Shown here one piece after another: positions 463 to 20,657 of a stretch of 25,291 nt of DNA. The notes below the pieces were generated by a model. The model saw nothing but the letters and a program-made list of their open reading frames with translations, searched no databases and was not told the DNA's origin. Origin of the DNA: a virus; IMG/VR virus record IMGVR_UViG_3300028197_000145, positions 1 to 25,291 of that record. One strand, 5' to 3'. The position numbers and the translations under genes were made by a program. Every line of letters begins with the position of its first letter. Position 1 is the first letter of the stretch.

Positions 463-3400
463 TTAAGAAAGTTTACTTTTCAATTCATCAATCTGTTTTT
501 GTTGGTCTTTGATAGCTTCGATAAGTAATCCAGTAAGTTTTGCATAATCTACACCTTTAAATCCATTATCTCTATCAGTTACCAACTGTGGTAGAACTTT
601 CTCAACATCTTGTGCAATTACACCAACATTTGGTAATGATTGTTGCAATTCATCTGCATTTGAGTTCCAATTCCATGTTACACCTTTTAAAGATTGTACT
701 TTTTCAATTGGGTTAGAGATAAGTTCTATATTATCTTTTAATCTTTCATCCGAAGAAGCATATGCTACAACATCACCACCAACATTCAATGCTCCACTAA
801 TACCAACACCACCAGTTACTTTAAGTGCTCCAGTCGTTTTGGATGTTGATGCAGTTGTGTTTGTGATTGATATAATACCAGTTGCAGTATCATTAGCATT
901 ACTTCTTAGATATTTACTATCTGTTTGAGTTGTAATATCAAATGATGAAATATAGTTCTCACCATTTGTTAATGAAGAGTTACTTGTTGGTATATCAGAT
1001 GTAAGAGCTACTGTACCAGTTGCATTTGGTAAAGTTATTGTTCTATCTGCTGATACAGTTCCAGCTATTAATGTTACTTCGTTATCATCTGCCGAACTAC
1101 CTTCAAATACAACACCATTTGATGTGGATACAGTTTCTACATTATTTGTAGTTGTTGTTCCAGTTACTACTATATCACCAGGGAAGGTTGTTATTGTTGA
1201 ACCATCTCCAATAGTAAGTGTATTACTAGTCATTGCATTGTTAAGTGCACCCCTAACATTACCCATATCAGTAACATCTGCACTAGTTTCAATACCATCT
1301 AATTTATCGTGATGAGTTGTACTCATTAAACCAGCGATAGTACCAGTTGCTTCTCCAATAACTACATCATCACCATCTGATGAATGAATTGTTATTTGTC
1401 CTGTTGCAGTTGTTTTAGATAAATTTGTACTTACGTTTGTATCTTTAGCTGAGTTATTAGTAATTGCAGTTGCTTGAGCTCCACTTATAGTTGTTGTATC
1501 TCCAGCGAGAGCAGTAGAACTTGAAGTTCCTAATTGTAAAGTAGTTACTGAACCACCAAGTGAGATAGCAGAACCATCTATTGTTATAGAAGAGTTTGCT
1601 AATTTACCATTTGCTATTGAACCTGCTAAATCTGCATTTGTAATAGAACCCGATTGGATTCCACTACCACCAGTCACAGTTTCTAAAGATACTTGTGAAG
1701 AACCAGATACTATACCAGTTCCACCAAATAAAGTTGCATCATCAATACTACTGCCAAGTGATACTGAAGTTCCACTAATAGTAATTGCTGAGTTTGAAAG
1801 TTTAGCATTTCCTATTGAACCAGCTAATTTACTTGCTGCAATTGAACCTGCTAATTGTGTGTTTGTTATTGTACCACTTAAATTAGAAGTTGCATAATTA
1901 GTTGCATCTGATAAATCAAATGCTGGTGTTGAATCCGAAGAACCTAAATCTACTGATACTCCACCAAAACTAACACTATCATTTGAAAGTTTAGAATTTG
2001 CGATTGAACCAGCAAGTTGTGAACTAGTTACACCACTAATTTGTGATGAGCCAGATACTACACCACTTGGTAATGATGTTAATACATTTGCTGCATCTGT
2101 TACATCTGCACCTGCTTCAATACCATCTAATTTATCATGGTCGGCAGTTGTAAAGTTTTCATCTGTTTGTGATGCAACTACGAAATCAATGTTACCATTA
2201 GTATCATCATATCCAACAGTAATTCCTGTTTCTGTTCCATCTAACATTCCACCTACGAAATCTTCAACTTGTTCTTGTGTTAGTTGTGTGTTATCATTAT
2301 CATTTGGAGTAGTTACAGAACCACCTAATGAGATAGCCGAACCATTTATAGTAATTGATGAATTTGCTAAATCATCATTTTGTATAGTATTTGCAGTAAT
2401 TTCTTGTCCACTTATAGTTAAGTAATCATTACCAGCAAGAGTTACATCTGTTGAATTATCAGTTCCAGCGGCATCAACTCCAAGTGCTGTTCTTGCTGCA
2501 CCTGCTGAAGTTGCTCCTGTACCACCACTTCCGATTGGTACTGTACCACCTGTTATTGCTTGTCCACTAATTGATAAGTAATTTGTATTTCCTAAAGTTA
2601 CATCTGTTGAATTATCAGTTCCTGCTGCATCTACACCTAAGTTTGTTCTTGCAGTTGATGCATTTGCTAAATCTGATAAATTACTTGATTTTGCTAATTT
2701 TGTTCCAACAGTTGTTGTTAAAGCAACTACATCAGAATCTCCATTTGCAATACTTGCAGAAATTTCTAATAATGTATCAAACGCCGCAGGTGCTCCACCG
2801 ATTAAACCAGTAAGTTCTCCTTGTACATAAGCAGTTGTTGCTATTTTTGTTGAATCATCATCAGCTGAAGGAGTTGGTGCTACTGTTGTTCCAGTAAATG
2901 TAGGAGAAGCAAACATTGTTGATTTACTTTCATTTGTTACATTTCCTAAACCAACATCACCTTTAGTTGTTGCTTGTGCTCTTAATCCACTATAATTTCC
3001 ACTTTGTGAGAATGCATCTACATCACTAATTTGAGATGAATCAATAGATACTTGTGCTGAACCAGATATTACACCTCCAATTAACTCGGCAGATATTGTA
3101 TCACCACTTAAAATCATATTAACTTCACTTGTATCAGCAACTGCCAAGTTAGTGTTTGAACTAATATCAACAGTTGTTAGATATGATGCAGTTGCCGCAT
3201 TTAATGATGTATTAGCATTTGATGCGGTAAATGCGTTTAATGAATCGTTTTTGTAATCTGAATCTACATTTAAAGTTCTTGTGGATGCGATTGTACCACC
3301 ACCATTTAAACCAGTACCCGCAGTTATAGAAACTGAAGTATGGTCAATATTTTCGTTTGCTACATATCCTGTCGTGTTATGTATATCAATTTGTGCTGAA

Positions 3401-5313
3401 CCAGTTACTACTCCTACTCCTCCAAATAGAGTTTCATCAGTAATTGCACCACCAAGTGATACTGAAGTACCACTAATAGTAATTGCTGAATTTGCTAATT
3501 TAGCATTAGCTACTGAACCTGCTAATTGTGCACTTGTTATACCACTTACTTGTGATGAACCACTTATAACTCCATCACTAACAGTAAATGTTACTGTTTC
3601 ATCTGAAGATTGGTTAAGTGTTATTGCACCACCACCATCTAATCCTGCTCCTGCAGTAAATGTGATTGTATTATTATTAACATCACTTGCTAATGCGTTT
3701 ACTTGGTCTGAACCAGATACTACACCACTTGGTAGAATTGATGTTACGTTACCAGTAGTTACTGTACCTACTGTTATTATTGAGTCATCACCAGCATATG
3801 TTCCACCAGCAACAGTTGCCAATGTTGAATTAAATGCTTGTACATCTGAACCAATTTCAACTCCTAAGTTTGTTCTTGCAGTTGATGCGTTTGCTAAATC
3901 AGATAAGTTACTTGATTTTGCTAATTTAGTACCAACAGTTGTTACTAAAGAGTTTAGTGAACCAGAATCTGCAGCTAATGAAGCTGATAGTTCTCCTAAT
4001 GTATCTACTGTTGAATCGGCAGTACCTATTAAATCAGTAAGTTCTTGTTGTACATAAGCAGTTGTTGCTATCTTTGTTGAACTATCGTTTGCCGAAGGTG
4101 TTGTTGATAATGGTGTTCCAGTAAATGTTGGTGAAGCAATATTAGCTTTTAAATCCAATGCAGTTTGTTGTGCAGTTGAAACTGGTTTAGCAGAATCCGC
4201 AGTATTATCTACATTTCCTAAACCAACATCACTTTTATCTTTTGTTATTTGTTCTGAACCAGAAACTACACCAGCTGGTAATAGTGTTGTTACTTGTGCT
4301 GAACCAGATACTACTCCAGCTCCTCCAAATAAAGTTTCATCTGTTATTGAACCACCAAGTGATACTGAAGTACCACTTATTGTTATTGCTGAATTAGAAA
4401 GTTTAGCGTTTCCAATTGAACCAGCTAATTTACTTGCCGCAATTGAACCAGCTAATTGTGAGTTAGTTACACCACTTATTTGTGATGAACCAGATATTAC
4501 TCCTAATGAATTTAAATGGTCTGTATTATCTGAATCTGTATATGAGGTTACACCTTCTAACGATGTACCATCTCCTACAAATGAACCAGTAAATGTAGTT
4601 GTTCCTGCAACATCACCGAAATCTTCACCACTTACTCTTCCACTTCCAAAATCAGTTGCAACATTTAATAATTGTGCTGAACCAGAAACTACACTAGTTC
4701 CACCAAATAAAGTTTCATCAGTAATTGCACCACCTAACGATACAGATGTTCCACTAATCGTTATTGCTGAATTTGCTAAATCTGCATTTAAAATTGAACC
4801 AGATTGTATTCCACTACCACCTGTTATTGTTTCTAATGTAATAGTTCCACCTAATGAAGTATCAACTCCAGCGATAGTAATACCATCGTTTGTTAATTTA
4901 CTATTTGCTATTGATGCTAATGTTGCAGCTCCCCCTGCTGCTATTGTAATATCTCCACTTACATTTCCGAATATTGAATCTTCTAAATTAGAGAAAGTTA
5001 CTTTCTTTTCTGTACCATCATCACTTATAAGAAAATTATCTGCTTGAGCTACTATTGCACTTCCCAATGCACCTAAAGAATCAATATTAAAAGATGTTGC
5101 AGCTATTCCAGTTAAACTTGAACCATCTCCAACAAATGAACCAGTAAATGAACCAGAGTAATTAACACTCGGTTGTACATTTTGGTCTACTCCACTTGAA
5201 TTTAAGGTTAAAGTTTCAAGAGTACCATTCTGTACTTGTAAGGTTATTAAATTTCCATTTTCATCCGATGGGAACTGTAATGAACCTGAAATTTTGGGGT
5301 TGTGTATAATCAT
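463..5313 (-). CDS. Giant tail-fibre protein with C-terminal S74 intramolecular chaperone (1616 aa)
   Basis: This is a long repetitive fibre protein. Residues 1-1500 are low-complexity beta-type repeats rich in S, G, T, A and N, with many copies of G[VI][VI]SGS[AS]Q[VI] and four copies of a 25-residue cassette near residues 181, 307, 608 and 1174. Two copies of a fibre module near 357-485 and 779-894 contain DVGLGNV, ASPTFTGT, STKIATTAYVQ and NLSDLANASTARTNLGV, segments typical of phage side-tail fibres. The last 99 residues match the peptidase S74 (endosialidase chaperone) family: SSDERLKDNI, GVIAQDVEKVLP and a coiled-coil end. By family knowledge, self-cleavage falls between Ser1521 and Asp1522, releasing about 95 residues after trimerisation. 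The ATG is preceded by AAGGAA. The receptor is unknown. Confidence 0.9.
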   Translation of the reverse strand: MIIHNPKISGSLQFPSDENGNLITLQVQNGTLETLTLNSSGVDQNVQPSVNYSGSFTGSFVGDGSSLTGIAATSFNIDSLGALGSAIVAQADNFLISDDGTEKKVTFSNLEDSIFGNVSGDITIAAGGAATLASIANSKLTNDGITIAGVDTSLGGTITLETITGGSGIQSGSILNADLANSAITISGTSVSLGGAITDETLFGGTSVVSGSAQLLNVATDFGSGRVSGEDFGDVAGTTTFTGSFVGDGTSLEGVTSYTDSDNTDHLNSLGVISGSSQISGVTNSQLAGSIAASKLAGSIGNAKLSNSAITISGTSVSLGGSITDETLFGGAGVVSGSAQVTTLLPAGVVSGSEQITKDKSDVGLGNVDNTADSAKPVSTAQQTALDLKANIASPTFTGTPLSTTPSANDSSTKIATTAYVQQELTDLIGTADSTVDTLGELSASLAADSGSLNSLVTTVGTKLAKSSNLSDLANASTARTNLGVEIGSDVQAFNSTLATVAGGTYAGDDSIITVGTVTTGNVTSILPSGVVSGSDQVNALASDVNNNTITFTAGAGLDGGGAITLNQSSDETVTFTVSDGVISGSSQVSGITSAQLAGSVANAKLANSAITISGTSVSLGGAITDETLFGGVGVVTGSAQIDIHNTTGYVANENIDHTSVSITAGTGLNGGGTIASTRTLNVDSDYKNDSLNAFTASNANTSLNAATASYLTTVDISSNTNLAVADTSEVNMILSGDTISAELIGGVISGSAQVSIDSSQISDVDAFSQSGNYSGLRAQATTKGDVGLGNVTNESKSTMFASPTFTGTTVAPTPSADDDSTKIATTAYVQGELTGLIGGAPAAFDTLLEISASIANGDSDVVALTTTVGTKLAKSSNLSDLANASTARTNLGVDAAGTDNSTDVTLGNTNYLSISGQAITGGTVPIGSGGTGATSAGAARTALGVDAAGTDNSTDVTLAGNDYLTISGQEITANTIQNDDLANSSITINGSAISLGGSVTTPNDNDNTQLTQEQVEDFVGGMLDGTETGITVGYDDTNGNIDFVVASQTDENFTTADHDKLDGIEAGADVTDAANVLTSLPSGVVSGSSQISGVTSSQLAGSIANSKLSNDSVSFGGVSVDLGSSDSTPAFDLSDATNYATSNLSGTITNTQLAGSIAASKLAGSIGNAKLSNSAITISGTSVSLGSSIDDATLFGGTGIVSGSSQVSLETVTGGSGIQSGSITNADLAGSIANGKLANSSITIDGSAISLGGSVTTLQLGTSSSTALAGDTTTISGAQATAITNNSAKDTNVSTNLSKTTATGQITIHSSDGDDVVIGEATGTIAGLMSTTHHDKLDGIETSADVTDMGNVRGALNNAMTSNTLTIGDGSTITTFPGDIVVTGTTTTNNVETVSTSNGVVFEGSSADDNEVTLIAGTVSADRTITLPNATGTVALTSDIPTSNSSLTNGENYISSFDITTQTDSKYLRSNANDTATGIISITNTTASTSKTTGALKVTGGVGISGALNVGGDVVAYASSDERLKDNIELISNPIEKVQSLKGVTWNWNSNADELQQSLPNVGVIAQDVEKVLPQLVTDRDNGFKGVDYAKLTGLLIEAIKDQQKQIDELKSKLS
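1720..1794 (-). repeat. 25-codon fibre cassette, copy in the 1616-aa gene
   Basis: Copy of a 75-nt in-frame cassette encoding NSAITISGTSVSLG followed by a divergent middle and LFGG. This is the most diverged copy (SSIDDATLFGG). It is followed in the protein by an SGSSQV segment, as at the other copies. Confidence 0.85.
3418..3492 (-). repeat. 25-codon fibre cassette, copy in the 1616-aa gene
   Basis: 75-nt cassette encoding NSAITISGTSVSLGG and ITDETLFGG, followed by VGVVTGSAQI. It has the same length and reading frame as six other copies in this gene and in the 955-aa gene. Confidence 0.9.
4321..4395 (-). repeat. 25-codon fibre cassette, copy in the 1616-aa gene
   Basis: 75-nt cassette encoding NSAITISGTSVSLGG and ITDETLFGG, followed by AGVVSGSAQV. 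The preceding segment (KLAGSIGNAKLS) is also repeated before the copy at 1720-1794, so the duplicated block is larger than the cassette there. Confidence 0.9.
4699..4773 (-). repeat. 25-codon fibre cassette, copy in the 1616-aa gene
   Basis: 75-nt cassette, the first in protein order (near residue 181), followed by TSVVSGSAQL and an ATDFGSGRVSGEDFGDVAGT segment. That second segment recurs in the 955-aa protein, so neighbouring modules are shared as well. Confidence 0.9.
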
Positions 5314-6013: not shown

Positions 6014-9000
6014 TTACTTGATTTTACTTTTTAATTCTTCTACTTCTTTTGATAGTTCTTTTATCCCGCTGATTAAAAGAGATACTAGTTTATCATATTT
6101 TACTGCTTTGTATCCATTTTCTCTAGTATTAACCAACTCAGGTAATATTTCTTCAATTTCTTGAGCTATTACACCATAATCCTTACCTTTATAAGTATTT
6201 TGTTTTTCAACATTCCAATCAAAACTATAACCATCAATTGAATTTATTTTTTCTAGTGGATTTTCTATTGGTTTAATATTATTTTTTAATTCTCTATCTG
6301 AAGATGCATATGCTATAATATCACTAGTAGCTTGTATAGTACCAGTTACATGAATTCCATTATTTATATCGAATCGTGTTCCTGAATGATTCCAAGTAAT
6401 CGATGCATTTGCATCACTACCTCTATCAACTTCAATACCACCACCATTTGCAGCTGATGAATTTGCTGAACCACTTGCAACTGTAATTAGTTTATCTTGA
6501 ATTGATAATTCAGTAGTTGAAATTTCTGTTGCAGAACCTAATACTGTGAAATCACCGTTTATAACAACATCACCCGAAGCGTTGATATCATTAAACGTTA
6601 CATCTGATGTTGTTTTAACATCTTGGTCCATTCCACCCAAGTAACCCCATTGTGTTGCCGAGATTGTACTTGTACCTATATTCTCTAATTGTGAACCTTC
6701 ATCTTCAGTTAAGTTACTAAGTTCAGTTACATTTGAAATTGCAATTGAACCACTATGAACATCATCTGCATCTATTACTTTCTTGATACCTTCATCGAAG
6801 TGAGCAGAACCAGTATCTAATGTTATACTTCTACTTGTATCAATAGTACCACCACCAGTTAAACCTTTACCACTACCAACTGAAATGCTTGAGTGGTCAA
6901 TATGTTCGTTTGCAACAAAGTTTGTAGTTGAATCATGGTCTACTTGTGATGAACCACTTATGATACCAGTACCTCTTGATTCAAATGTACTTGATAACTG
7001 ATTTGAACCACTAATTACTCCACTTGGTAAAATTGCTTGAACATTACCAGTTGTAACTGTACCAACAGTTGTAATAGCTGATTGTAAGAAGTGTTCACCT
7101 GCTACGAAGTTGGTTGTAGCATCGTGGTCTATTTGAGATGAGCCACTTATTACACCATCACCACCAGTATTAAGATATCTTGTATCAAAATCTGTTGTAA
7201 GTTGTGCTGAACCACTAATTACTCCCTCTGTATCTAATTTATCTTTTACTTTACTATCAGAATATTGATTTATAGAAGAATAATTTGTTGTATTTTGAAC
7301 ATCTATTTGAGCCGAACCACTTACTACTCCACCTTTTAAGTTTGCAGATAAAGTATCATCAGTCAAAATCATATTAACTTGGTCGGTATCTGATACTGCT
7401 AAGTTAGTTCCACTTGATATATCAATTGTTCCGATTGAAGTTAAGTAAGAACCAGTTGCTGCACTTAATGCATCTACTTCTGTTTGTATTGAAGAAGTAA
7501 ATGTGTTTATTGAACCTAAAATACCTATTACTTGTGATGAACCACTAATTACTCCCTCTGTATCTAATTTATCTTTTACTTTACTATCAGAATATTGATT
7601 AATACTTCCAAAGTTTGTTGTATTTTCAACATCTATTTGAACTGAACCACTTACTACTCCACCTTTAATATTTGCTGATAAAGTATCATCAGTCAAAATC
7701 ATATTAACTTGGCTTGTATCTGATACTGCTAAGTTAGTATTAGTTGATATATCTACTGTTGTTAAGTATGATGAAGTTGCCGCATTTAATGATGTATTAT
7801 CATTACTTGCTGTAAATGAATTTAGTGATACATTTAAATTACTTGTTAAATAAGAACCAGTAGCTGCTGATAATTGATTTAATCTTGTATCCTGTCCACT
7901 ATTTGTAGTATCATTCGAAGCAGTATATGAATTTAATGATGTATTAGCATTTGATGCAGTAAATGAATTTAATGGTACAATTTCGTTTAGAGTTAAATAA
8001 GAACCAGTTGCTGAGTTTAATGATGTATTATCATTACTTGCAGTAAATGCATTTAATGAACCTAAATCAACTGCTCCACCTGCAATGTTGGTTACACCAG
8101 TTGTAAAGTGAGATGAACCAGTATCTAAGGTAACGGTTGTTGCACCTGATATTCCCCCTCCACTTATACCTAATCCAGCATTTACTTCTGTAATATCACC
8201 TGCACCTGCTTCAATTATAGATGCATCAATATAATTTTTTGTTGCTTGAGCAGTACCAATAACTTGTGAGTTACCATCTGCAATAGAAGATGAGAAGTGT
8301 AATAAAGCAGCAGTTCCTAAAGAATTAAATTTAACTTCATTACTATCTACAAATAATGCAGTTAATACACTATCACTACTTGTTACTAAAGATGTTAAAC
8401 TTAAAGAACTAAATGATGGTGAATCATTTGTGTTTAATCCTAAATCTAGATTTGTTGCAGTACCATTGATACTAGCAGTTATCGAACCTTGATGATTTGA
8501 TGAGAAAGATGAACCACTTACTACTCCACCTTTAAGATTTGCTGATAAAGTATCACCAGTTAAAATCATATCTATATTCGAAGTATCAGCAACTGCTAAG
8601 TTTGTATCTGAAGATATATCAACAGTTGTTAGGTATGATGAAGTTGCTGCAGAAAGTTGATTTAATCTTGAATCCTGTCCCTCTTGTTCTAATGTAATAG
8701 AACCAGTTTCAGTTGAAAGTTGATTTAATCTTGAATCCTGTCCCTCTTGTTCTAATGTAATAGAACCAGTTTCAGTTGAAAGTTGATTTAATCTTGAATC
8801 TTGTGCAGATTGTTCACTTGATATAGAACCAGTTTCAGTTGAAAGTTGGTCTAATCTTGAATCTTGTGCAGATTGTTCAGATGAAATAGAACCAGTTTCA
8901 GTTGAAAGTTGGTCTAATCTACTATCTTGTGCCGCTTGTTCAGATGATATAGAACCAGTTTCAGTTGAAAGTTGGTCTAATCTTGAATCTTGAACTAAAT

Positions 9001-10756
9001 TTTTTGTATCGTTAGATGCAGTATATGAGTTTAAAGAAGTATTGATATGATTAGAACCACTTAATATTCCAGTTCCACCTAATACTTGTATAGAACCACT
9101 AATTACTCCATCACCATCTAATTTTGTTTTTACTCTTGTATCAGTATAGTAAAGATTACTACCTTCAGTTACTTGGTCTGTATCAATACCTGTAAGTTCT
9201 CCACCTTCTCCTTTAAATCCTACCGATGAACTTACTTGAGCATCTAATATAAATTGAGATGTATTATGGTCCCACTTTAATGATTTACCAGCACCATCAA
9301 TTTCTAAACCTGCTCCATCTGCTGCAGCTGAATCTGCTGAACCACTTGCAACTGTAATTAATTTATCTTCAATTTTTAATTCTGTTGAAGATATTTCAGT
9401 TGCAGAACCTAAAACAGTTAAATTACCAGTAACAGTCATATCACCAGTAAATGAACCAGTATTAAATGTTACATCTGATGTTGTTGATAGATTTTGGTTT
9501 ATCGTATCAAGATTTGCTTTATTAGCGTGTGAATGAGATACATCACTTAGTAAATCCAATCTACTATCTATTGATGTAGAAAGAGGTCCTTCAATCGTAT
9601 CTAATCTACTATCTACTGATGATGAAAATCCATTAAAGTTTTCATTTGAGGATGAAAGAACATTACTTCCACCTAATATTTGTATTGAACCAGATATAAC
9701 ACCACCTTTTAAATTTGCAGAAATACTACCACCATTGATAATCATATCAACTTGATTAGAATCAGTTGATGATGAAATTATATTTCCACTTATACCTGCT
9801 ATTTCAGTAAAGTTTATTTGACCTGAACCACTAATTACTCCATCATCATCTAGTTTATCTTTTACATTACTATCAAAGTTTGTAATTGAATCAGCATCTA
9901 CTTGAGATGAACCAGATACTACTCCACCAATTAATTCAGCAGATAGAGTATCACCAGTTAAAATCATATTAACTTCTGATGTATCGCTTACTGCTAAATT
10001 AGTATCAGTTGATATATCTACTGTTGTTAGATAAGATGAAGTGGCTGCTTCTACATTATCTAATCTACTATCTAATGATGCAGTTGTAGAATGTAAGTTT
10101 GTAATGTTTATATCGTTTGATGCGGTGTAAGAATTTAATGAAGTGTTAGAATCAGATGAAGAAATAAATCCTAAATCTGTAATTTGTGCTGAACTACTTA
10201 CAATATCAGTTCCTCCAAGAATTTGGATTGAACCACTTACTATCCCAGCTGGAATACTATTTAAATCAGTAAATACTACTTGAGATGAACCACTTACTAA
10301 TCCACTTGGAATACTACTTATGTTTACAAAGGTTACTTGAGATGAACCACTTACTAATCCACTTGGCAATGCTGCAACTATCTGACCTGAACCACTAATT
10401 ATTCCATTTCCAAAAAGTCCATTTACAGCATTTACATTTCTCCATTGTTTTGTAGCAGAACCTAAATCGTATGTATTATCTGCATCAGGTATAATTGATG
10501 AACTCAATTCACCTTGTATTATAATGTTATCTGTACTTGCATCTCCAAGAAAAATACTACCACCTAAAGTAATATCTCCTGTGAACTCGATTGAACCAGT
10601 GTTAATACCTAATCGTGATAGTGTTACGTTTGAGGTACCTGTACCTATTTGTAGGACTTCACTGTCAGTATTGTAAAATAGTTCACCAATAGATAAATTA
10701 CCTATACTACTTAAATCTGAATTTGTCCCTTTCCTTAGTTGTAATATTGCAGCCAT
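6014..10756 (-). CDS. Giant tail-fibre protein with C-terminal S74 intramolecular chaperone (1580 aa)
   Basis: The N-terminus (MAAILQLRKGTNSD, then GELFYNTDSEVLQIGTG) is a diverged form of the MAQIIKLKR..GELA start shared by its neighbours. The body is repetitive: GVISGSxQ[VI] units, a recurring DTNLAVSDTSEVNMIL / DTLSANLKGGVVSGS block, and six tandem 21-residue repeats at about 588-702. Two copies of a module with GSATEIS, DKLITVASGSA and a W-containing strand lie near 446 and 1405. The last 98 residues are a peptidase S74 domain (SSDRELKNNI, YGVIAQEIEEILPEL, terminal coiled coil). Predicted self-cleavage is between Ser1486 and Asp1487. Here Glu occupies the place where many members have Arg (SDxR). 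The gene starts after a terminator and an extended -10 element, so it probably heads its own transcription unit. Confidence 0.9.
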   Translation of the reverse strand: MAAILQLRKGTNSDLSSIGNLSIGELFYNTDSEVLQIGTGTSNVTLSRLGINTGSIEFTGDITLGGSIFLGDASTDNIIIQGELSSSIIPDADNTYDLGSATKQWRNVNAVNGLFGNGIISGSGQIVAALPSGLVSGSSQVTFVNISSIPSGLVSGSSQVVFTDLNSIPAGIVSGSIQILGGTDIVSSSAQITDLGFISSSDSNTSLNSYTASNDINITNLHSTTASLDSRLDNVEAATSSYLTTVDISTDTNLAVSDTSEVNMILTGDTLSAELIGGVVSGSSQVDADSITNFDSNVKDKLDDDGVISGSGQINFTEIAGISGNIISSSTDSNQVDMIINGGSISANLKGGVISGSIQILGGSNVLSSSNENFNGFSSSVDSRLDTIEGPLSTSIDSRLDLLSDVSHSHANKANLDTINQNLSTTSDVTFNTGSFTGDMTVTGNLTVLGSATEISSTELKIEDKLITVASGSADSAAADGAGLEIDGAGKSLKWDHNTSQFILDAQVSSSVGFKGEGGELTGIDTDQVTEGSNLYYTDTRVKTKLDGDGVISGSIQVLGGTGILSGSNHINTSLNSYTASNDTKNLVQDSRLDQLSTETGSISSEQAAQDSRLDQLSTETGSISSEQSAQDSRLDQLSTETGSISSEQSAQDSRLNQLSTETGSITLEQEGQDSRLNQLSTETGSITLEQEGQDSRLNQLSAATSSYLTTVDISSDTNLAVADTSNIDMILTGDTLSANLKGGVVSGSSFSSNHQGSITASINGTATNLDLGLNTNDSPSFSSLSLTSLVTSSDSVLTALFVDSNEVKFNSLGTAALLHFSSSIADGNSQVIGTAQATKNYIDASIIEAGAGDITEVNAGLGISGGGISGATTVTLDTGSSHFTTGVTNIAGGAVDLGSLNAFTASNDNTSLNSATGSYLTLNEIVPLNSFTASNANTSLNSYTASNDTTNSGQDTRLNQLSAATGSYLTSNLNVSLNSFTASNDNTSLNAATSSYLTTVDISTNTNLAVSDTSQVNMILTDDTLSANIKGGVVSGSVQIDVENTTNFGSINQYSDSKVKDKLDTEGVISGSSQVIGILGSINTFTSSIQTEVDALSAATGSYLTSIGTIDISSGTNLAVSDTDQVNMILTDDTLSANLKGGVVSGSAQIDVQNTTNYSSINQYSDSKVKDKLDTEGVISGSAQLTTDFDTRYLNTGGDGVISGSSQIDHDATTNFVAGEHFLQSAITTVGTVTTGNVQAILPSGVISGSNQLSSTFESRGTGIISGSSQVDHDSTTNFVANEHIDHSSISVGSGKGLTGGGTIDTSRSITLDTGSAHFDEGIKKVIDADDVHSGSIAISNVTELSNLTEDEGSQLENIGTSTISATQWGYLGGMDQDVKTTSDVTFNDINASGDVVINGDFTVLGSATEISTTELSIQDKLITVASGSANSSAANGGGIEVDRGSDANASITWNHSGTRFDINNGIHVTGTIQATSDIIAYASSDRELKNNIKPIENPLEKINSIDGYSFDWNVEKQNTYKGKDYGVIAQEIEEILPELVNTRENGYKAVKYDKLVSLLISGIKELSKEVEELKSKIK
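7211..7423 (-). repeat. 213-bp direct repeat, downstream copy (1580-aa gene)
   Basis: Near-identical partner of 7541-7753, offset by exactly 330 nt and therefore in frame. The first 60 nt on the plus strand (7211-7270) are identical to 7541-7600 on direct comparison. It encodes DTDQVNMILTDDTLSANLKG, SAQIDVQNTTNYSSINQYSD and KVKDKLDTEGVISGS. Confidence 0.9.
7541..7753 (-). repeat. 213-bp direct repeat, upstream copy (1580-aa gene)
   Basis: Partner of 7211-7423. The middle differs by scattered substitutions (for example VENTTNFG versus VQNTTNYS) while the DKLDTEGVISGS end is identical in DNA. This suggests a duplication followed by local divergence or by gene conversion at one end. Confidence 0.9.
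8652..8994 (-). repeat. 63-bp tandem repeat, six units (1580-aa gene)
   Basis: Six consecutive units start at 8652, 8715, 8778, 8841, 8904 and 8967, each 63 nt after the last; the sixth is incomplete. Each encodes QDSRL[DN]QLSTETGSI followed by a variable SSEQAA / SSEQSA / TLEQEG end. The units at 8652 and 8715 are identical over all 63 nt, indicating recent duplication, while the others carry substitutions. Twenty-one residues equal three heptads. With Leu5 and Leu8, then Thr12 and Ile15, at a/d positions, the stretch could form a trimeric coiled coil with a polar core; this is inference. Confidence 0.95.
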
Positions 10757-10918: not shown

Positions 10919-13786
10919 TTAGAATGTACCTCCATCAATTTCGTTACTTGCAACGAAAGATGAACCATTCCATTGAATCACATCACCTGCAGTTGAAGCC
11001 GCAACTGATTCGATAGATTTATCTGCATTAACGAATGCAAATCCATTTGCTGTTGCTCCATTAACTCGTAATTCTGCAGTACCAGTAATAAGTACATTTG
11101 TACCATCATCTTCAATCAATGAATCAACTAGTAATCCATTAGAATCCGCTTTAAGAACTGTGTTAGCAGTTGGAGTAGCATTTAATCTTGCGATTTCCTT
11201 TTCACTTCCAAGTGCACCAGCCATCCAATTATCTTCAGATGCATCCCATAGTAAAGAACCACTTACAGTAGCTCCACCGGTAACATCACTAACTAAAAGT
11301 CCAGCATCACCTGCACCATCAGCGTAGTTAAGTTCAATAATTCTATCACCAATGTTTACAGTTGTAGAATCAATAGTTGTAGTTGTACCTTCAACCGCTA
11401 AGTTTCCAGTTACAGTTACATTACCAGTAAGTGTTGGGTTTGATGGGATTCCAATTGTTACAGTTTGACCAGAAACAGAAGTTTCGATTTCGTTAGTTGT
11501 ACCAGCGAAAGTTAAATCTTGTGTTTTTAGTGAAACTGAACCATTACCACTTGAACCACTAATATCTAATGTACTAGCAACACCAGTAAGTGCTGAACCA
11601 TCTCCAATGAATGAACCAGTAAAGTCAGTTGTTCCACCTACATCACCAATATCATCACCACTTATTCTACCACTTCCAAAATCAGTCGCTTGATTTGATA
11701 ATCCAGCTACTATTTGTGCTGAACCAGATATTGTACCTGTCCCACCAGCGATTGTTGCGTAAGTAATAGTTCCACCTAATGATGTATCAACACCAGCTAT
11801 TGTAATTCCATCGTTAGAAAGAGATGAATTTGCAATGTTTGTAATAGTGTTATCTGGACCATTGATAGTTTTGTTAGTTAAAGTTACAGTTGAAGCCGCA
11901 AATGAACTTGTATAGTTTTCTAACCTACCAGCTCTTTGTTGTAGAGCTGAATCAGCAGTTTCAAGTGCACCAGTTGCTGCAGCTAATTCTGCAGTATCTA
12001 CGAAATCACCACTTACAGAACCAGTGAATGCAGATAATTGGTCTAATCTTGTATCTTGTCCACTATTTGTTGTATCGTTAGATGCAGTATATGAATTTAA
12101 AGAAGTGTTTAATACTTCATCATCTAAATTTGCTTTATCAATTGCAGTACCACTCCATACACCGGTAGCAATTGTACCTAATGTAGTTATGGAAGATGCT
12201 CCTGTAAATCCAGTCTTATCAGCAGATTGTAATACTACTTGTGCTGAACCAGTTACTACACCAACTCCACCAAATAGTGTTTCATCAGTAATTGAACCAC
12301 CTAATGAAACAGATGTTCCACTAATTGTTATTGCTGAATTTGCTAATTTACCATTTGCAATTGAACCAGCTAATTTATCGTTAGATATTGAACCAGCTAA
12401 TTGTGCATTTGTAATTCCTGATACTTGTGCAGAACCAGAGAATACACCATCACCATTTGCAACTAATACTTTAGATTCTGAACCACTTGCTCCCGCAATC
12501 CATTGGTTATCAGTACCATTCCATAAGAATGAACCACTTGCAGGTCCATTTGCATCATGTACTTCTAAACCACCAAGTGCTGCTCCACTACCATTAAGAG
12601 CTAAAATATTATCTCCTAATACAACAGTAGTTGAATCAACTGATGTAGTTGTTCCTTGTACTTCTAAGTTACCAACAATTGTTAAATCATTTCCGATTGT
12701 TACATCATCAGGTAAACTTAATGTTACTTTTACATCATTACCAACTTTAGTTACTGCAGTTGCGATTTCGTTTGCAGTTCCTAAAAATTGTAAATCATCA
12801 TTGATTAAATCTACGTTTTGAGTTCCACTATCACCATCAACAGTTAAGTTAGTTGCTAATCCAGTTAATCCTGAACCATCACCAACAAATGAACCTGTTA
12901 TAGTTGAAGTTCCTGCAACATCACCAATCGATGCTCCACTTATTCTACCACTACCAAAATCAGTTGCTTGGTTAGAAAGAGATGCTACAACTTGAGCTGA
13001 ACCGCTTATTACAGTATCAGCATCTAATTTTGCTTTTACATTTGTATCAAAGTTTGTAATTGAATCTGCATTTATTTGAGCTGAACCAGTTACTACACCA
13101 GTTCCACCGAATAATACTTCATCAGTAATTGCACCACCTAATGATACTGAAGTACCACTAATAGTGATTGCAGAATTTGATAATTTTGAATTTGCTATTG
13201 AACCAGCTAATTGTGTATTTGTAATTCCTGATACTTGTGCTGAACCAGAGAATACACCAACTCCACCAAATAATACTTCATCAGTAATTGCACCACCAAG
13301 AGAAACCGAAGTTCCACTAATAGTAATTGCTGAATTTGCTAATTTATCATTTGCTATTGAACCTGCTAAATCTGCATTTAAAATAGAACCAGATTGTATT
13401 CCACTACCACCTGTTACTGTTTCTAAAACTACTTGAGATGAACCGGACATAATTCCAGTACCACCTGTTTGAGGGGTAGCTTTTACTTCTACATTTCCTC
13501 CTTTGTTTAGGATATATAATTTTTGGTCATCAGTATCAAAGAATGGAATACCATCCACATGGGTGTTATAATTACCACCAGTTAAATCAGGTACGGTTGT
13601 TCCTTGTAATATTTTATTTACAGGACTCGCCGTTGAACCATCGATACCAACAAACACTAAATTAGCTCCATTGGCAATCGTTCCAAGACCACTTGAACCA
13701 GTAACAACTAACAGTTCACCTGCTCTTGTTGTTGCATCTTTCAGGCCTTCGAGATTACCTCTTCTGTGCTTTATAATTTGTGCCAT
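10919..13786 (-). CDS. Fibre-like structural protein without S74 domain (955 aa)
   Basis: The start MAQIIKHRRGNLEGLKDATT with AGELLVVTGSSG marks it as a member of the local fibre family. Residues 100-280 contain SGSxQV repeats and two copies of the 25-residue cassette (near 151 and 204); a third lies near 483. A module reading GNLEVQGTTTSVDSTTV and ending with an FLWNGTDNQWIAG strand occurs at about 372-435. It is repeated near 794-860 as GNLAVEGTTTTIDSTTV, ending in LLWDASEDNWMAG. The protein ends SNEIDGGTF with no chaperone domain. The gene stands alone between a 167-nt gap and a strong terminator. Its exact position in the virion is unknown; a fibre, or a partner of the S74 fibres, is the likely role. 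An AAGGAAA site precedes the ATG. Confidence 0.85.
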   Translation of the reverse strand: MAQIIKHRRGNLEGLKDATTRAGELLVVTGSSGLGTIANGANLVFVGIDGSTASPVNKILQGTTVPDLTGGNYNTHVDGIPFFDTDDQKLYILNKGGNVEVKATPQTGGTGIMSGSSQVVLETVTGGSGIQSGSILNADLAGSIANDKLANSAITISGTSVSLGGAITDEVLFGGVGVFSGSAQVSGITNTQLAGSIANSKLSNSAITISGTSVSLGGAITDEVLFGGTGVVTGSAQINADSITNFDTNVKAKLDADTVISGSAQVVASLSNQATDFGSGRISGASIGDVAGTSTITGSFVGDGSGLTGLATNLTVDGDSGTQNVDLINDDLQFLGTANEIATAVTKVGNDVKVTLSLPDDVTIGNDLTIVGNLEVQGTTTSVDSTTVVLGDNILALNGSGAALGGLEVHDANGPASGSFLWNGTDNQWIAGASGSESKVLVANGDGVFSGSAQVSGITNAQLAGSISNDKLAGSIANGKLANSAITISGTSVSLGGSITDETLFGGVGVVTGSAQVVLQSADKTGFTGASSITTLGTIATGVWSGTAIDKANLDDEVLNTSLNSYTASNDTTNSGQDTRLDQLSAFTGSVSGDFVDTAELAAATGALETADSALQQRAGRLENYTSSFAASTVTLTNKTINGPDNTITNIANSSLSNDGITIAGVDTSLGGTITYATIAGGTGTISGSAQIVAGLSNQATDFGSGRISGDDIGDVGGTTDFTGSFIGDGSALTGVASTLDISGSSGNGSVSLKTQDLTFAGTTNEIETSVSGQTVTIGIPSNPTLTGNVTVTGNLAVEGTTTTIDSTTVNIGDRIIELNYADGAGDAGLLVSDVTGGATVSGSLLWDASEDNWMAGALGSEKEIARLNATPTANTVLKADSNGLLVDSLIEDDGTNVLITGTAELRVNGATANGFAFVNADKSIESVAASTAGDVIQWNGSSFVASNEIDGGTF
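12266..12340 (-). repeat. 25-codon fibre cassette, copy in the 955-aa gene
   Basis: 75-nt cassette encoding NSAITISGTSVSLGG and ITDETLFGG, then VGVVTGSAQV. At protein level it equals the copy at 3418-3492 in another gene except for a Ser/Ala change. Confidence 0.9.
13103..13177 (-). repeat. 25-codon fibre cassette, copy in the 955-aa gene
   Basis: 75-nt cassette with ITDEVLFGG in place of ITDETLFGG, followed by TGVVTGSAQI. The Thr-to-Val change is shared only with the neighbouring copy at 13262-13336, so these two probably arose by local duplication (offset 159 nt). Confidence 0.9.
13262..13336 (-). repeat. 25-codon fibre cassette, copy in the 955-aa gene
   Basis: First cassette of this protein (near residue 151), carrying ITDEVLFGG and followed by VGVFSGSAQV. 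It is preceded by a GSGIQSGSILNADLA segment that also precedes the copy at 4699-4773 in the 1616-aa gene. Confidence 0.9.
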
Positions 13787-14564: not shown

Positions 14565-17500
14565 TTAAAATGCTCCTAATGAACCACTACTTGGTATTAC
14601 CTTAACTCTCATATTTGTTGCACTACTATTTATTTTAGCACCTAATACGTGCCACTTATCAAATCCACCTTGTGTTCCATCAACATCAAGTGTATGAATT
14701 ATTGATGGAGATGCTCCCAAAGGTGCAGATGTTCCATCAGCATAGTGAACTAAACAATATTCTCCTGCAGTACTTCCTCCAAAACCATCTGTCATTGAAG
14801 TTGGTACATTTGTCATACTTGAACCACTTGGTATTACAAATACTGTTTGTACAGTACTTCCCCAACTCATTGCTCCTGCTGATGCAGAAATAATTGTTGG
14901 AAAATCCGAACCACTTATCGTTGCCGCAAGGGTCATAGTTTTACCACCAGCAAGTGAATATGAACTATCACCTATTGATGTTTTAAGTTTGTAATATGGT
15001 GATGCAGTATTTGCCGTATAAGCAGTTACTTCAGGTGGAGTATCACTATTTAAGGTACTTGCACCCATCACCGAATTATACGCACTCGTGTAATTACCAT
15101 CCGAAGCGTAGTTCGAATAATAAATATATACTTTACCTGTATTTGCTGATTGGTCAACTACAATTGATTGATTTGATAAAGTTACTGATTCTGAGTAACT
15201 ATCTGTTACTACTATGTTAATTGAGTATGTTCCTGCCTCTAAAGAACCAGTTGGTTGTATTTCAAATGGTGTTGTTGAACCACTTACATCAAACTTACCA
15301 CCATCAGTACCTGCGAGGGTAACTGTAAATGGTGAATTACTTTCTACATCAGTTACTACTAATGCACCTGCATCAGAATCAGCAATTGCATTATCACTTT
15401 CATAGTTTGATGATGATGTAAATGATGCAACTGGTGATTGGTTACCAAATACATTTAAGGTAACTGAACCACTACCAACATTTCCATATTGGTCATCAAA
15501 TGTTATTGTTGTACTTACTGTATCTCCACTTTGTGTTAGTGAACCACTTAAATCTACTGCTAAAGTTAATCCACCAGTATCATTTATTGCAATTGCCGCA
15601 TTTGATGATGTGAATGATTGTACTATTGGTGAACCAAATGATGGTGAATAAGATACATCAACATCTCCAGCGTTTCCATTTTCAAATCCAGTCGCATCTC
15701 TTAATACCGAACCACTTAATGCAGATTCTATTGCATAAACTGCAGTATCACCACTCATTGTACCTGTATCGGCTTGTGTTATCACTAACGAACCACTTAC
15801 AACTCGTGTATTAAATCCATGTTCATCTTTTAATGTTACTTCCCAAGGGTAAGTTCCACTTGGTACTGAAGTATTATTTACATTTAATCTCATATTTGGA
15901 GTTGAAACCGATGGTGTGAAATAAGTTGAGTTGTAACTTGACCAAGTTAAACCAGCATTTGGCATTGAATCACTTTCAGTATCAGATATTGTTAATTCTA
16001 ATACTTCAACTGAACCAGTTGCTTGGTTTGTATTTTCAAATTGAGTTGAAAGTGAACTTGTAGTTGGTGCATTGTTTGTAGTTACATTAACTGATATAGA
16101 ACCACTACCTACGTTACCATGTTGGTCTGCCCAAGTTATATTAGAGGTGATTGAATCTCCACTTGTTTCACTACTTCCACTTATATTTGTTCCTACTGAT
16201 AAATTACCACTTGTATTTACAGAAACAAATGCGTTTGATGAAGTAAACTCTTGTACAACTTGTGAACCATAGTTAGGTGAATAAGAAACTCCTAAATCTC
16301 CTTGTGTTCCTGTTCTACCATTTGAGTTTGTTACGATGTTATTACCATTTACAGCAGATTCTATAACATAGAATGTACCATTAGTTGATAATGTACCTAA
16401 AGTTGCTTCTGCAATTGTTATTTCTCTTTCATATTGTGAAGTTTCACCAAATTGGTCAAAGATTGAAGCAGTATATGAATAAGTTCCACCATCAAAATCA
16501 GATGCCGCAGTTAACTGAACTGAAGAAGTGTTTGAGTTTTGTGGTTCTATGTTAAATTTACCTGCATCTGTTCCACTTAAACTCATACTAAATGGAGTAT
16601 CTGTTTCTTCATCTGTAATTGTTAGTGAAACCATCAATGCACTTGATGTTGCTTGATTAGTATTGTAAACTCCACTATTATTAGTGAAGGAAGCACTTGG
16701 GTGTGAGTTTGCAAATACATTTACTGTTAAACTACCACTACCTAAATTACCATAATTATCTTGGAATGTTATAGTAGATGAAATTGAATCACCTGATGAT
16801 GTAGCTGAACCACTTATATCAACTGCAAGTGTTAAGTTACCACTATTATCAATATCAATTGATGCATTTGATGATGTGAATGATTGAACTGATGGTGAAC
16901 CATCTGAACCAGAGTATGAAACAGTTAATTGTGAAGCATTTCCTGCTTCAAAACCACTTGCATCTCTTAGAACCGAACCACTTCTTGCTGATTCAATTAA
17001 ATGTGATGTTGTATCCCCACCAAGTGTACCAGTATCGGCTTGATTGATAGGAATTGTTTGACCTATGTAATCTGATACTTCACTATAAGAATCAGTTACT
17101 CTTAGGTTATAAGTTATGGTCCCTGCAGATAAGTTCTCATTTGCTCTAATGAAGAGAGATGATGAATTTGAGTTTGTATAATTGATATTTAGTTTTCCTG
17201 CATCAGTACCAGATAGAGAAGCAGAATAAGGAGTATCACTCTCTGTATCCGTTATCGATACAGAAACCAAATTTGTGTTTGTTGTTGCTAAATTAGTATT
17301 TAGGTTTGAATTTTGTAATGTAAATGATGCACTCGGGTGATGATTTGGAATAACAGATACACTAATAGCTTGAGCAGTTGTTGTACTAAAACTATTTGTA
17401 AATGTAATTGTAGAATCGATTGTTTCTCCACTTTGAGTTACTGAACCACTTAAATCTACATTCAATGATAAATTACCACTACCATTTATTAAAATTGATG

Positions 17501-20500
17501 GATTAGATGATGTGAATGCTCCAGCTTGATTAGAATCAAAATCAGCAGTTGTTGAACCATAGTTTGTTGTTTTTATGGTAGTACCACTTTCTTCAGATTC
17601 TTTAATAAATAAATTAGTAAAGTTATCTGTAAGTGTTGCTGGTGTATCATCAGTAATCGGTATTGTTATAATTGCTGGATTCGATAGTTCATTATATGCA
17701 TCTTTTATTTCAACAGTATATTGATATTCATTAATCAAATCAGAATTTATAAATACACCTGTTTTTCTTGTTACTACTCCACTTGAACTCATTTGAAATG
17801 GATTTTCATGTGGGTCTGTTAATTGAGATGTTCCACCATAAGAACCACTTGATACATTTGCATTATCTAATTCTAATTTGTATAAAGTAAAGTTAGTAAA
17901 TGTAATTGTATCTCCTTCATTATCAGCCGCTGATATAGTTCCAACAGTTGCACCATTTGAACTATTTTCATTTATTGCTGAAAGTGATTGATTACTAAGA
18001 GTTGGTTTTAAGTTATCAGTTATATTAACAGTAATTGGTAATGCTACGATAGAATCAGAATCTTGTCCATTTTCAAAGTGTTCATCTGATGCAGATATAC
18101 TAAAATTATATGTTGTTTGTTCTTCATAATTTAAAGAACCTGTATTTTGTCTAATATCAACATAAGTTGAATATTTAGTTACATCAAAATGATTACCATC
18201 AATTGATGATGAATGTATTGTTATTGTATCTCCATTTGCATCTGTAAAATATACTCTTTTTACTAAAGTATTATTTGTTGAACTTTCATTTAAATTTGAA
18301 GTTACTGATGTTATGATATTTCCACTTGTAGAAGTTTCTCTAAATACAGGTGTTGAGTTTGGAGTTACAAATATTGTAATATCTTTTTCAACTGTTGAGT
18401 TGAATGTATCGGTTGCAGTTGCAGTAAATGTATGTCCATGCGAACCACCTACTAAATCAGTATTAAATGAAGATGATTCTGCTAATACATTCAAAGTTAC
18501 AACACCATTGGATGCAACTCTAACTAAATCATCTGTATAATCAGATGCAGTACCGAATGTAAGTGTTTGTCCTTCAGGATCAGTTGCTTCTAATGTAAAT
18601 ATAGCAGCTGAACTTGCACTATATTCAGAAATCGTTTGATTACCACTTGATATTGATGGTGCACTATTTGGATAGAATACAGCATTTAAGAAATCTGTTA
18701 TAGAACCACTTGTACCAGGATTAAATGATGATGTGAATAACTGAGGTAATTTTTCTTGTGATATAATTCTATTTCCATCAAAATCAGTTGAACCTCCACT
18801 TGAACCACTTAATGCATATCTTGTATCATATGAAGATGTTAATTGTGAAGAACCACTTATAATTCCACTTGGTACTGAAGTAATATCTGTAAAATCTACC
18901 GAGCCACTTGATGTTAAGTAAGATGATGTTGCTGCACTTAATCCATCAACCTCTGTTTGTATAGATGAAGTAAATGTATTTAATGAAGTTGTTGAATCTG
19001 ATGAAGAAATAAATCCTAAATCAGTAATTTGTTCTGAACCACTAATAGTTCCTGCATCAATTGATGTTAGATAAGAAGAAGTTGCTGATGATATTCCATC
19101 AACTCTTGTTTCTATTGAACTAGTAAATTGTTCAAGTGATAAATCTCGTTGTCTACTAGAAGTATAATGATTTGCAAATGCAGTATCGTTTGATGTATCT
19201 GTTGTGTTAACTAAATCTACAATTTCTACGAACTGGTCGTAATCTGCACTTGCACCACTTAATATATTATCTATTCTATCTTTTTCAGTAGTAATTCTTG
19301 TATCTAATGATGCAGAATCAACATAATAAGAAGAAGTAAATGTATTTAGTGATGATACGTTTGTTAAATCATCATATGAACCAGTATTTGATTCAATTTC
19401 TCCTACTCTTTGTTCTAAAGAAGAAGTTGTTGATTCAATATTTGAAATCTTGATATCATTTGATGATGTATATGAATTTAATGAGGTTATATCAGTTTTA
19501 GAACCACTAAGTATATCAGTTCCACCTAATACTTGTATAGATGCTGAAATTAAACCACTTGGCAATTGTTCTGAACCGCTTATTACTCCACTTGGTAACT
19601 CCGAACCTGTCGGTATAGTTACTGTATTACCAGTTGATATTGTTAACTGGTCTCCACTTATAGAAAGTGTTTGATTATCAGTTTCACTTGTTAAGTAAGA
19701 ACCAGTTGCTGCTTCTATATTTAATAATCTTGAATCAGCTGATGATGTATAAGTGTTTAATGAACTTATATCGGTATGTGATGAAGAAATAAATCCTAAA
19801 TCAGTAATTTGTTCTGAACCACTAATAGTTCCTTGTGGTATTTGTGTATGAGAACCACTAAGTATTCCAGTTCCACCTAATATTTGAACTGAACTTGAAA
19901 CTATTCCACTTGGAAATTGTTGAGATGAACTTATTATTCCTCTACCAACAGTTTCATAAGAACCAGTCGTATCTGATATTTGTGTTATTCGTGTATCTAA
20001 TGAAGAAGTTGTTGATTCTAAATTAGTTAATCTTAAATCAGTAGATGAAGTATAATCATTTAATGAAGTTACATCTCCACCTCCACCACCAGAACCACTT
20101 AAAGCATATCTTAAATCATATGATGAGGTTAATTGAGAACTTCCACTAATTAATGAAGGTACATTTATAAGGTTAGAGTAGTCAATCGAACCTGTGAATG
20201 AAGTTGCAGTAATTGAACCAGTTACTTCTAAATTTGCACTTACTTTATATACACCACCACTTATAGTCCATATAGAAGAACCGCCACCACCTCCTCCACC
20301 GAGAGTTGATAAATCAACAGAATTACCATCTCCAATAGATAATATTTTACTTGCTTGGTTAAAGGAAAGAGTTTGGTCATCAGTATCAACTGAACTAAAT
20401 TGTGATGCAATAGATGAACTAAATGAGGTAAACCCATCTGTTTCTAGTAAAGAAATTTGAGATGAACCACTAACAAAACCAGTTCCACCAAAGTTAAGTT

Positions 20501-20657
20501 GAGAACCATCACCAGTAAACGAACCACTAAATGAACCAGTAACACCACTAGCCGCAGATAAATCTACAAGTCCACCACCACCGACAGTAAAATCTCCTTG
20601 AACTACCGAAGCAGTTACTACACCTTGTATCTGTTTACTTTGAATTAACGTTGCCAT
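14565..20657 (-). CDS. Giant fibre/adhesin with Ig/cadherin-like super-repeats (2030 aa)
   Basis: Residues 1-640 are fibre repeats (GSFTGDGSQL, G[LFIV]ISGSxQ units, TSS[IL]xTR coiled-coil-like segments) with poly-Gly hinges near 115-125 and 188-192. From DFLNAVFYPNSAP (about 650) it changes to beta-sandwich domains. Cadherin-like domains with acidic D-x-[EN]-[GST]-[DQN] motifs lie near residues 691, 803, 909, 1134, 1346, 1556 and 1766. Between about 1109 and 1840 a two-domain unit of about 212 residues repeats three and a half times. The last 190 residues (about 1841-2030) form a non-repetitive domain with the only cysteine I saw, a plausible receptor-binding tip. No S74 domain is present. 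The gene starts 2 nt after the 122-aa stop, so it is probably translated from the same mRNA as the neck genes. Calcium binding and adhesion are inferred from the fold type. Confidence 0.85.
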   Translation of the reverse strand: MATLIQSKQIQGVVTASVVQGDFTVGGGGLVDLSAASGVTGSFSGSFTGDGSQLNFGGTGFVSGSSQISLLETDGFTSFSSSIASQFSSVDTDDQTLSFNQASKILSIGDGNSVDLSTLGGGGGGGSSIWTISGGVYKVSANLEVTGSITATSFTGSIDYSNLINVPSLISGSSQLTSSYDLRYALSGSGGGGGDVTSLNDYTSSTDLRLTNLESTTSSLDTRITQISDTTGSYETVGRGIISSSQQFPSGIVSSSVQILGGTGILSGSHTQIPQGTISGSEQITDLGFISSSHTDISSLNTYTSSADSRLLNIEAATGSYLTSETDNQTLSISGDQLTISTGNTVTIPTGSELPSGVISGSEQLPSGLISASIQVLGGTDILSGSKTDITSLNSYTSSNDIKISNIESTTSSLEQRVGEIESNTGSYDDLTNVSSLNTFTSSYYVDSASLDTRITTEKDRIDNILSGASADYDQFVEIVDLVNTTDTSNDTAFANHYTSSRQRDLSLEQFTSSIETRVDGISSATSSYLTSIDAGTISGSEQITDLGFISSSDSTTSLNTFTSSIQTEVDGLSAATSSYLTSSGSVDFTDITSVPSGIISGSSQLTSSYDTRYALSGSSGGSTDFDGNRIISQEKLPQLFTSSFNPGTSGSITDFLNAVFYPNSAPSISSGNQTISEYSASSAAIFTLEATDPEGQTLTFGTASDYTDDLVRVASNGVVTLNVLAESSSFNTDLVGGSHGHTFTATATDTFNSTVEKDITIFVTPNSTPVFRETSTSGNIITSVTSNLNESSTNNTLVKRVYFTDANGDTITIHSSSIDGNHFDVTKYSTYVDIRQNTGSLNYEEQTTYNFSISASDEHFENGQDSDSIVALPITVNITDNLKPTLSNQSLSAINENSSNGATVGTISAADNEGDTITFTNFTLYKLELDNANVSSGSYGGTSQLTDPHENPFQMSSSGVVTRKTGVFINSDLINEYQYTVEIKDAYNELSNPAIITIPITDDTPATLTDNFTNLFIKESEESGTTIKTTNYGSTTADFDSNQAGAFTSSNPSILINGSGNLSLNVDLSGSVTQSGETIDSTITFTNSFSTTTAQAISVSVIPNHHPSASFTLQNSNLNTNLATTNTNLVSVSITDTESDTPYSASLSGTDAGKLNINYTNSNSSSLFIRANENLSAGTITYNLRVTDSYSEVSDYIGQTIPINQADTGTLGGDTTSHLIESARSGSVLRDASGFEAGNASQLTVSYSGSDGSPSVQSFTSSNASIDIDNSGNLTLAVDISGSATSSGDSISSTITFQDNYGNLGSGSLTVNVFANSHPSASFTNNSGVYNTNQATSSALMVSLTITDEETDTPFSMSLSGTDAGKFNIEPQNSNTSSVQLTAASDFDGGTYSYTASIFDQFGETSQYEREITIAEATLGTLSTNGTFYVIESAVNGNNIVTNSNGRTGTQGDLGVSYSPNYGSQVVQEFTSSNAFVSVNTSGNLSVGTNISGSSETSGDSITSNITWADQHGNVGSGSISVNVTTNNAPTTSSLSTQFENTNQATGSVEVLELTISDTESDSMPNAGLTWSSYNSTYFTPSVSTPNMRLNVNNTSVPSGTYPWEVTLKDEHGFNTRVVSGSLVITQADTGTMSGDTAVYAIESALSGSVLRDATGFENGNAGDVDVSYSPSFGSPIVQSFTSSNAAIAINDTGGLTLAVDLSGSLTQSGDTVSTTITFDDQYGNVGSGSVTLNVFGNQSPVASFTSSSNYESDNAIADSDAGALVVTDVESNSPFTVTLAGTDGGKFDVSGSTTPFEIQPTGSLEAGTYSINIVVTDSYSESVTLSNQSIVVDQSANTGKVYIYYSNYASDGNYTSAYNSVMGASTLNSDTPPEVTAYTANTASPYYKLKTSIGDSSYSLAGGKTMTLAATISGSDFPTIISASAGAMSWGSTVQTVFVIPSGSSMTNVPTSMTDGFGGSTAGEYCLVHYADGTSAPLGASPSIIHTLDVDGTQGGFDKWHVLGAKINSSATNMRVKVIPSSGSLGAF
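15135..17331 (-). repeat. About 635-bp super-repeat, three and a half units (2030-aa gene)
   Basis: Unit boundaries, marked by the segment xNxxPxASFT, fall near 17331, 16692, 16058 and 15425, spaced 633-639 bp (211-213 residues). Each unit has domain A (ITDxESDxPF, LSGTDAGKFNI, GTYxYxxxVxD) and domain B (IESAxSGSVLRDAxGFE, SPxVQSFTSSNA, LTLAVDxSGS, STITFxDxYGNxGSGS). The last unit has domain A only and then runs into the unique C-terminal domain. A domain-B-like copy also precedes the first unit. Confidence 0.9.

Follow-up and report, generated by a model that had tools for sequence, protein, structure and literature searches.

A long tail-fibre gene in a 25,291-base virus record of the IMG/VR type, the whole of which is referred to here as the window, carries a tandem array of 63-bp repeats, each of which codes for 21 amino acids, or three heptads. 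We consider this array to be an evolutionarily adjustable, probably trimeric, coiled-coil spacer that is altered in whole units and in frame, and we give this reading a probability of roughly 0.83. It is based on the repeat itself, on a ladder of coil lengths at matching slots in related phages and on a constraint on the heptad register, each of which was observed directly.

The Fibre Gene and Its Genomic Setting

Judged from its gene content, the minus strand of the window reads like a T4-type structural block with head genes and, after them, several fibre-like proteins of great length (Table 1). The capsid protein of the window is closest to those of an uncultured 484-kb phage (67.3%), of Flavobacterium phage immuto (63.9%) and of Microcystis phage Mel-JY01 (61.2%). 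The two Pfam domains of the 1580-aa fibre protein, Mtd_N (27.0 bits against a cut-off of 26.3) and, at the C-terminus, Peptidase_S74 (67.1 bits against 22), were the sole matches at E 0.01, and a collagen match was absent at that threshold. Within the shaft array no Pfam family reached its cut-off, the best being DUF1263 with 18.4 bits against 27.

Two long fibre genes lie on the minus strand at 463-5313 and 6014-10756 with one short ORF between them, and both end in Peptidase_S74, which raises the possibility of two S74 fibre types in this phage. The product of a further minus-strand gene (14565-20657) is 2030 aa long and contains numerous Ser/Thr-rich segments, similar to one another, that resemble cadherin- or Ig-like repeats by eye; it had no PHROG match at E 0.001. 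Additional in-frame repeats in fibre genes were detected by TRF at 10229-10366 (57 bp, 2.4 copies) and 13076-13369 (159 bp, 1.8 copies); by eye these encode modules of the SGSxQ type and not coil.

Table 1. Features of the window that are relevant to the repeat array.
Feature	Position	Strand	Evidence or remark
Tail-fibre gene, 1580 aa: Mtd_N (residues 6-42), shaft modules, Peptidase_S74 chaperone (residues 1486-1542)	6014..10756	-	ORF, Pfam, PHROG tail fibre families
Whole slot with both caps	8411..9157	-	AF2 helix at slot residues 34-176, low-confidence beta hairpin 195-208
Truncated sixth unit (QDSRLNQLS...), ends the coil, then right cap YLTTVDIS	8615..8677	-	
Two near-perfect copies, which contain the identical 63-mers starting at 8652 and 8715	8652..8800	-	86 exact period-63 matches
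Five full 63-bp / 21-aa units, residues 589-693	8678..8992	-	TRF and reading frame
Second, short coil of 26 aa with similar caps, same protein	9809..10141	-	Full RhxxhE (RLDNVE, residue 231)
Head-tail adaptor	23084-24235	-	PHROG 211
Major head protein	24388 to window end	-	PHROG 138

The Repeat Array

A sequence-only reading of this DNA had described six 63-bp units in tandem, two of them identical. The repeat is real: TRF found at 8652-8992 a period of 63 with 5.4 copies, 91% matches and 0 indels (score 479), a repeat search of the window placed the units at start-to-start spacings of 63, 63, 63, 63 and 63, and the 63-mers at 8652-8714 and 8715-8777 agree without a mismatch. The count of six requires adjustment, in that the gene lies on the minus strand and, in frame, holds five full units, while the sixth is truncated after its first nine residues, with the next domain following directly.

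In reading-frame phase, the near-identical pair differs by one synonymous base (CAA/CAG). Units 1-3 and units 4-5 form two subtypes. Identity between adjacent units is 83-98% in the window, compared with 68-87% in the eight-unit array of contig L019. Since the window units have mostly diverged from one another, exact periodicity is limited to a run of 86 bases, which by inspection is far above chance for 25 kb, and the two near-perfect copies together occupy 149 bases. If the record derives from short-read assembly, the count of this near-identical pair could be wrong by one unit. The slot that contains the array is bounded on the left by the cap SLNxYTxSND and on the right by YLTTVDIS, after which a beta hairpin is predicted.

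A Ladder of Coil Lengths at Matching Slots

Related contigs were gathered by whole protein, unit, cap and downstream flank; loci L011-L018, which are pieces of the window itself, were excluded from every count. Six slots share a homologous downstream flank, and they hold five full units in the window, eight in L077 (the same contig as L019), one each in L079, L080 and L081 and none in L078. The corresponding coils measure 124, 187 and, in the three single-unit cases, 40 aa, with L078 carrying a 10-aa link without the unit, so that the five coil-bearing slots all follow 19+21n residues. The earlier expectation that units could be added or lost without disturbing frame or heptad register is borne out by this series from 0 to 8, and the rod seems to have been lengthened in whole steps during evolution.

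A broader survey of cap-to-cap linkers, for which only exact duplicates were collapsed, yielded 12 of 18 with lengths of 19, 26, 40, 61, 103, 124 or 187 aa, a single class modulo 7 in which all except 26 follow 19+21n. The six others (10, 99, 123, 178, 224 and 268) lack an anchor or cross other modules, and relaxing the cap rule placed 15 of 21 linkers in one class modulo 7. Contig L001, whose neighbouring-gene stretches are about 90% identical to those of the window, has a 26-aa coil in a slot matched by its upstream flank and caps, and is absent from the results of the downstream-flank search. L019 also has four 21-aa units in a separate array nearer the start of its fibre (4882-5147), where the window has just its 26-aa coil; the right cap differs, and orthology of the two is therefore only putative.

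Heptad Register and the RhxxhE Motif

Anchors of the R-h-x-x-h type are expected to lie a multiple of seven residues apart wherever the chain forms a heptad coiled coil. Among distinct pairs spaced 7-91 residues apart this was found for 148 of 192, a count in which exact duplicates were collapsed and near-identical contigs kept, and for 81 of 125 when the value 21 was left aside. Generic Rhxxh anchors gave 194 of 252, or 116 of 174 without 21, over 26 loci from 26 contigs. The compared phages are related, and thus such counts are not independent; with each contig-spacing taken once and 21 omitted, 44 of 94 were multiples of seven, compared with an expectation of 1 in 7. Control motifs gave 103/518 (SGS), 9/41 (GV[VI]SGS) and 58/470 (D[LI]); a fourth, T.TG, gave 41/62, but this motif lies within the unit. 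Exceptions to the rule occur in L020, which has 38-aa spacings and linkers of 99 and 123 aa. In two of its ORFs, which start at 1527 and 6536, a different module, of the SELAAATGALETKD type, interrupts the coils, and the 38-aa spacing there departs from multiples of seven.

RhxxhE is a trimerisation motif according to the accessible part of the source (PMC5940361). It occurs 237 times in 79 ORFs, against a mean of 2.8 and a maximum of 8 in 200 shuffles; E follows Rhxxh at 237 of 399 sites, and at least one copy is present in 23 of the 26 contigs. L037 was omitted from these and the generic-anchor counts, as it overlaps L040 on one contig; the 27-locus set that includes it gave 209/275 multiples of seven and 261 RhxxhE motifs. 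The window array has RLxQLS in all six units, and with S in place of the final E the motif is degenerate there; full copies in the 1580-aa protein are confined to residues 231 and 384. The trimeric assignment draws on the motif in the family, and neither on the array's own sequence nor on a solved or predicted trimer.

Predicted Structure of the Array

The array is predicted to be helical. With a single sequence, the AF2 monomer was helical over residues 13-158 of 200, the mean pLDDT of the five models ranging from 75.8 down to 37.9. A ten-row alignment gave one 143-residue helix (34-176 of 249), with pLDDT 89-97 over the array and low confidence for the hairpin that follows. Together with the register kept in relatives, which is the weightier evidence of the two, this supports the coiled coil that had been suggested, although repetitive sequence as such may bias AF2 toward a helix. 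A hydrophobic 3.5-residue signal within one unit was not significant, 19% of unit permutations scoring as high.

Searched by sequence against the PDB, the eight-unit array (E 0.007) and the window array (E 0.074) had the same best match, a fragment of reovirus sigma-1 that we take to be a trimeric coiled coil. A profile of the 21-aa unit produced weak PDB matches (best E 0.037), and Foldseek searches of PDB and BFVD returned no match at E<=0.001.

Divergence and Possible Exchange of Units

Unit and core comparisons were made for nine loci picked for carrying the unit, and null tests and permutations for eight of these. The first unit of the window differs from the first unit of the same slot in L019 at 1 of 63 bases, and for the other window units the nearest unit in any other contig is 4 to 8 bases away, as if the arrays grew and shrank internally. 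The nearest counterpart of a GSIETEQAA-type unit in the L019 slot differs from it at 5 of 63 bases and belongs to another slot, in L001.

A ten-codon core of 30 bases, from which the variable D/N codon is omitted, has the same sequence in 19 of 33 copies, and these come from 7 of 9 contigs. Core pairs from different contigs were identical in 150 of 459 cases, whereas windows of ten conserved residues in flanking genes led one to expect 76, an excess of about twofold; in the distant contig L026 the figures were 34 of 62 core pairs against 1 of 167 background windows. A null based on codon usage (0.0015) was rejected as too lenient, given that the flanking DNA is shared too, and the empirical null was used in its place. 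The excess hints, tentatively, at exchange of units between phages, the flanks being mosaic and the pairs non-independent. The bolder idea is of a mobile 21-aa building block, present in varying number in several fibre slots, with phages trading and multiplying one DNA cassette that sets the geometry of their fibres; it would account for these sequence patterns but appears doubtful to us.

In the blastn comparison of contigs, cut at 80% identity and considering alignments of at least 800 bases, L001:10993-11869 and L024:12716-13593 shared 878 aligned bases at 97.8% identity, other listed blocks being at about 82-88%. This block suggests a recent exchange near the fibre genes.

Proposed Mechanism and Alternative Explanations

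Within the shaft of a presumably homotrimeric phage fibre, the array would form a rod-like spacer, namely a parallel, probably three-stranded coiled coil of three-heptad units held between the two caps. Unequal recombination between the 63-bp repeats, or slippage during their replication, would add or remove whole units, and with such whole-unit changes reading frame and heptad register survive. A coiled-coil helix rises by 1.48 A per residue, and each unit would thus add about 3.1 nm, such that the distance from the virion side to the receptor side would change stepwise over evolutionary time. Fibre length is among the geometric traits on which a phage's access to a given surface could depend, and we infer that unit number may influence reach and adsorption. 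The slot shows how a fibre can change in length without its fold being re-invented, and natural relatives that differ in three-heptad steps between similar caps constitute ready variants for studying the effect of shaft length on adsorption or host range.

The most serious alternative shares this structure and mechanism and differs in purpose alone: units may vary by slippage or recombination, with register-breaking changes purged and shaft length carrying no adaptive meaning. We regard such neutrality as quite plausible, if short of an even chance. It would produce the spread of 0 to 8 units that six phages show at a single slot, and the reuse of the unit in several slots and phages would agree with this view and with an adaptive one alike.

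The earlier suggestion of a length-variation switch, taken here to mean that unit number would change frequently within one population and alter adsorption in the style of a contingency locus, found no support and is improbable. Adjacent identical 63-mers, the exact period-63 run and relatives differing in unit number speak for it, but L001 and L002, with 12 mismatches in 18,262 bases (99.93% identity), both carry four units in another slot, and L030, L031 and L032 (99.9% identical) carry one each. This comparison is a thin one, L001/L002 being the one informative near-identical pair with multiple units and L027/L028 being uninformative on unit number because they are identical. The observed variation lies between diverged phages, the blocks they share with the window being 80-92% identical in the comparison cut at 80%, and the divergence of adjacent units in both the window and L019 leaves little long exact homology.

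It is likewise improbable that the array itself binds a receptor or glycan, with additional copies adding avidity. Its sequence is polar and rich in S, T and Q, and changes and duplications in the T4 gene 37 adhesin reportedly alter host range (Tetart 1996; PMC9004378 on gene 37), yet the array is predicted to be a plain helix and lies mid-protein, remote from the C-terminal end. Finally, that assembly created or collapsed the repeat number of this uncultured virus contig can be given very little credence, even with a near-perfect stretch close to short-read length, for only two window units are near-identical while the others carry distinguishing bases, and arrays of at least two units were present in eight of the nine contigs picked for carrying the unit.

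Relatives and Comparison with Known Systems

A whole-protein tblastn search matched 233 of 50,697 known-phage records, and among the matches listed the coverage was of the C-terminal part about the S74 domain only, 5-7% of the query. The 168-aa array region had no match to known phages at E 0.01 with the low-complexity filter on. Archaeal genomes and bacterial genomes other than E. coli contained 39 pattern-matching stretches, none of which encodes a relative. Within about 20 kb on each side of the capsid gene in immuto, Mel-JY01 and the 484-kb phage, there was no ORF of more than 120 aa with at least four anchors; immuto has one 378-aa ORF with an SGSSQ or GSYLT motif. A literature search, in which subscription journals were thinly covered, returned no published description of the 21-aa unit, and a Klebsiella paper that had seemed pertinent (PMC13119998) was set aside, its accessible part holding nothing on fibre repeats.

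The window protein resembles phage fibres with Peptidase_S74 and Mtd_N in carrying both domains above curated cut-offs, and differs from them in a shaft array that falls under no Pfam family at cut-off. Trimeric autotransporter adhesins, BadA and others, have stalks built of modular, repetitive coiled coils. The likeness to the window array is one of modular build, and these proteins are bacterial outer-membrane adhesins whereas the array belongs to a phage fibre. For T4, work by Tetart in 1996 reportedly described duplications of adhesin domains in gp37 with a changed host range. The window shares with it an in-frame duplication inside a T4-type tail-fibre gene; in gp37, however, the duplication lies in the adhesin and alters host range, while in the window it lies in a putative shaft coil.

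The closest parallel is provided by the collagen-like side tail fibres (EPcl) of E. coli O157 prophages, whose trimeric PCoil domains, in the accessible part of the source, typically differ in length by multiples of seven (PMC3368898). Both are phage fibres with an alpha-helical coiled coil, and in the window family, too, coil lengths differ by multiples of seven. PCoil, as described there, is an Ala/Ser-rich low-complexity coil beside collagen, whereas the window has a 21-aa unit repeated in tandem at the DNA level, set between its two caps, in a protein where the Pfam search gave neither the collagen Gly-X-Y repeat nor the PfN/PfC domains of EPcl. Length change by heptad multiples is thus already published (PMC3368898, in its accessible part); what the window and its relatives contribute is the three-heptad tandem unit, the ladder from 0 to 8 units at matching slots and the recurring caps, in an uncultured group of phages.
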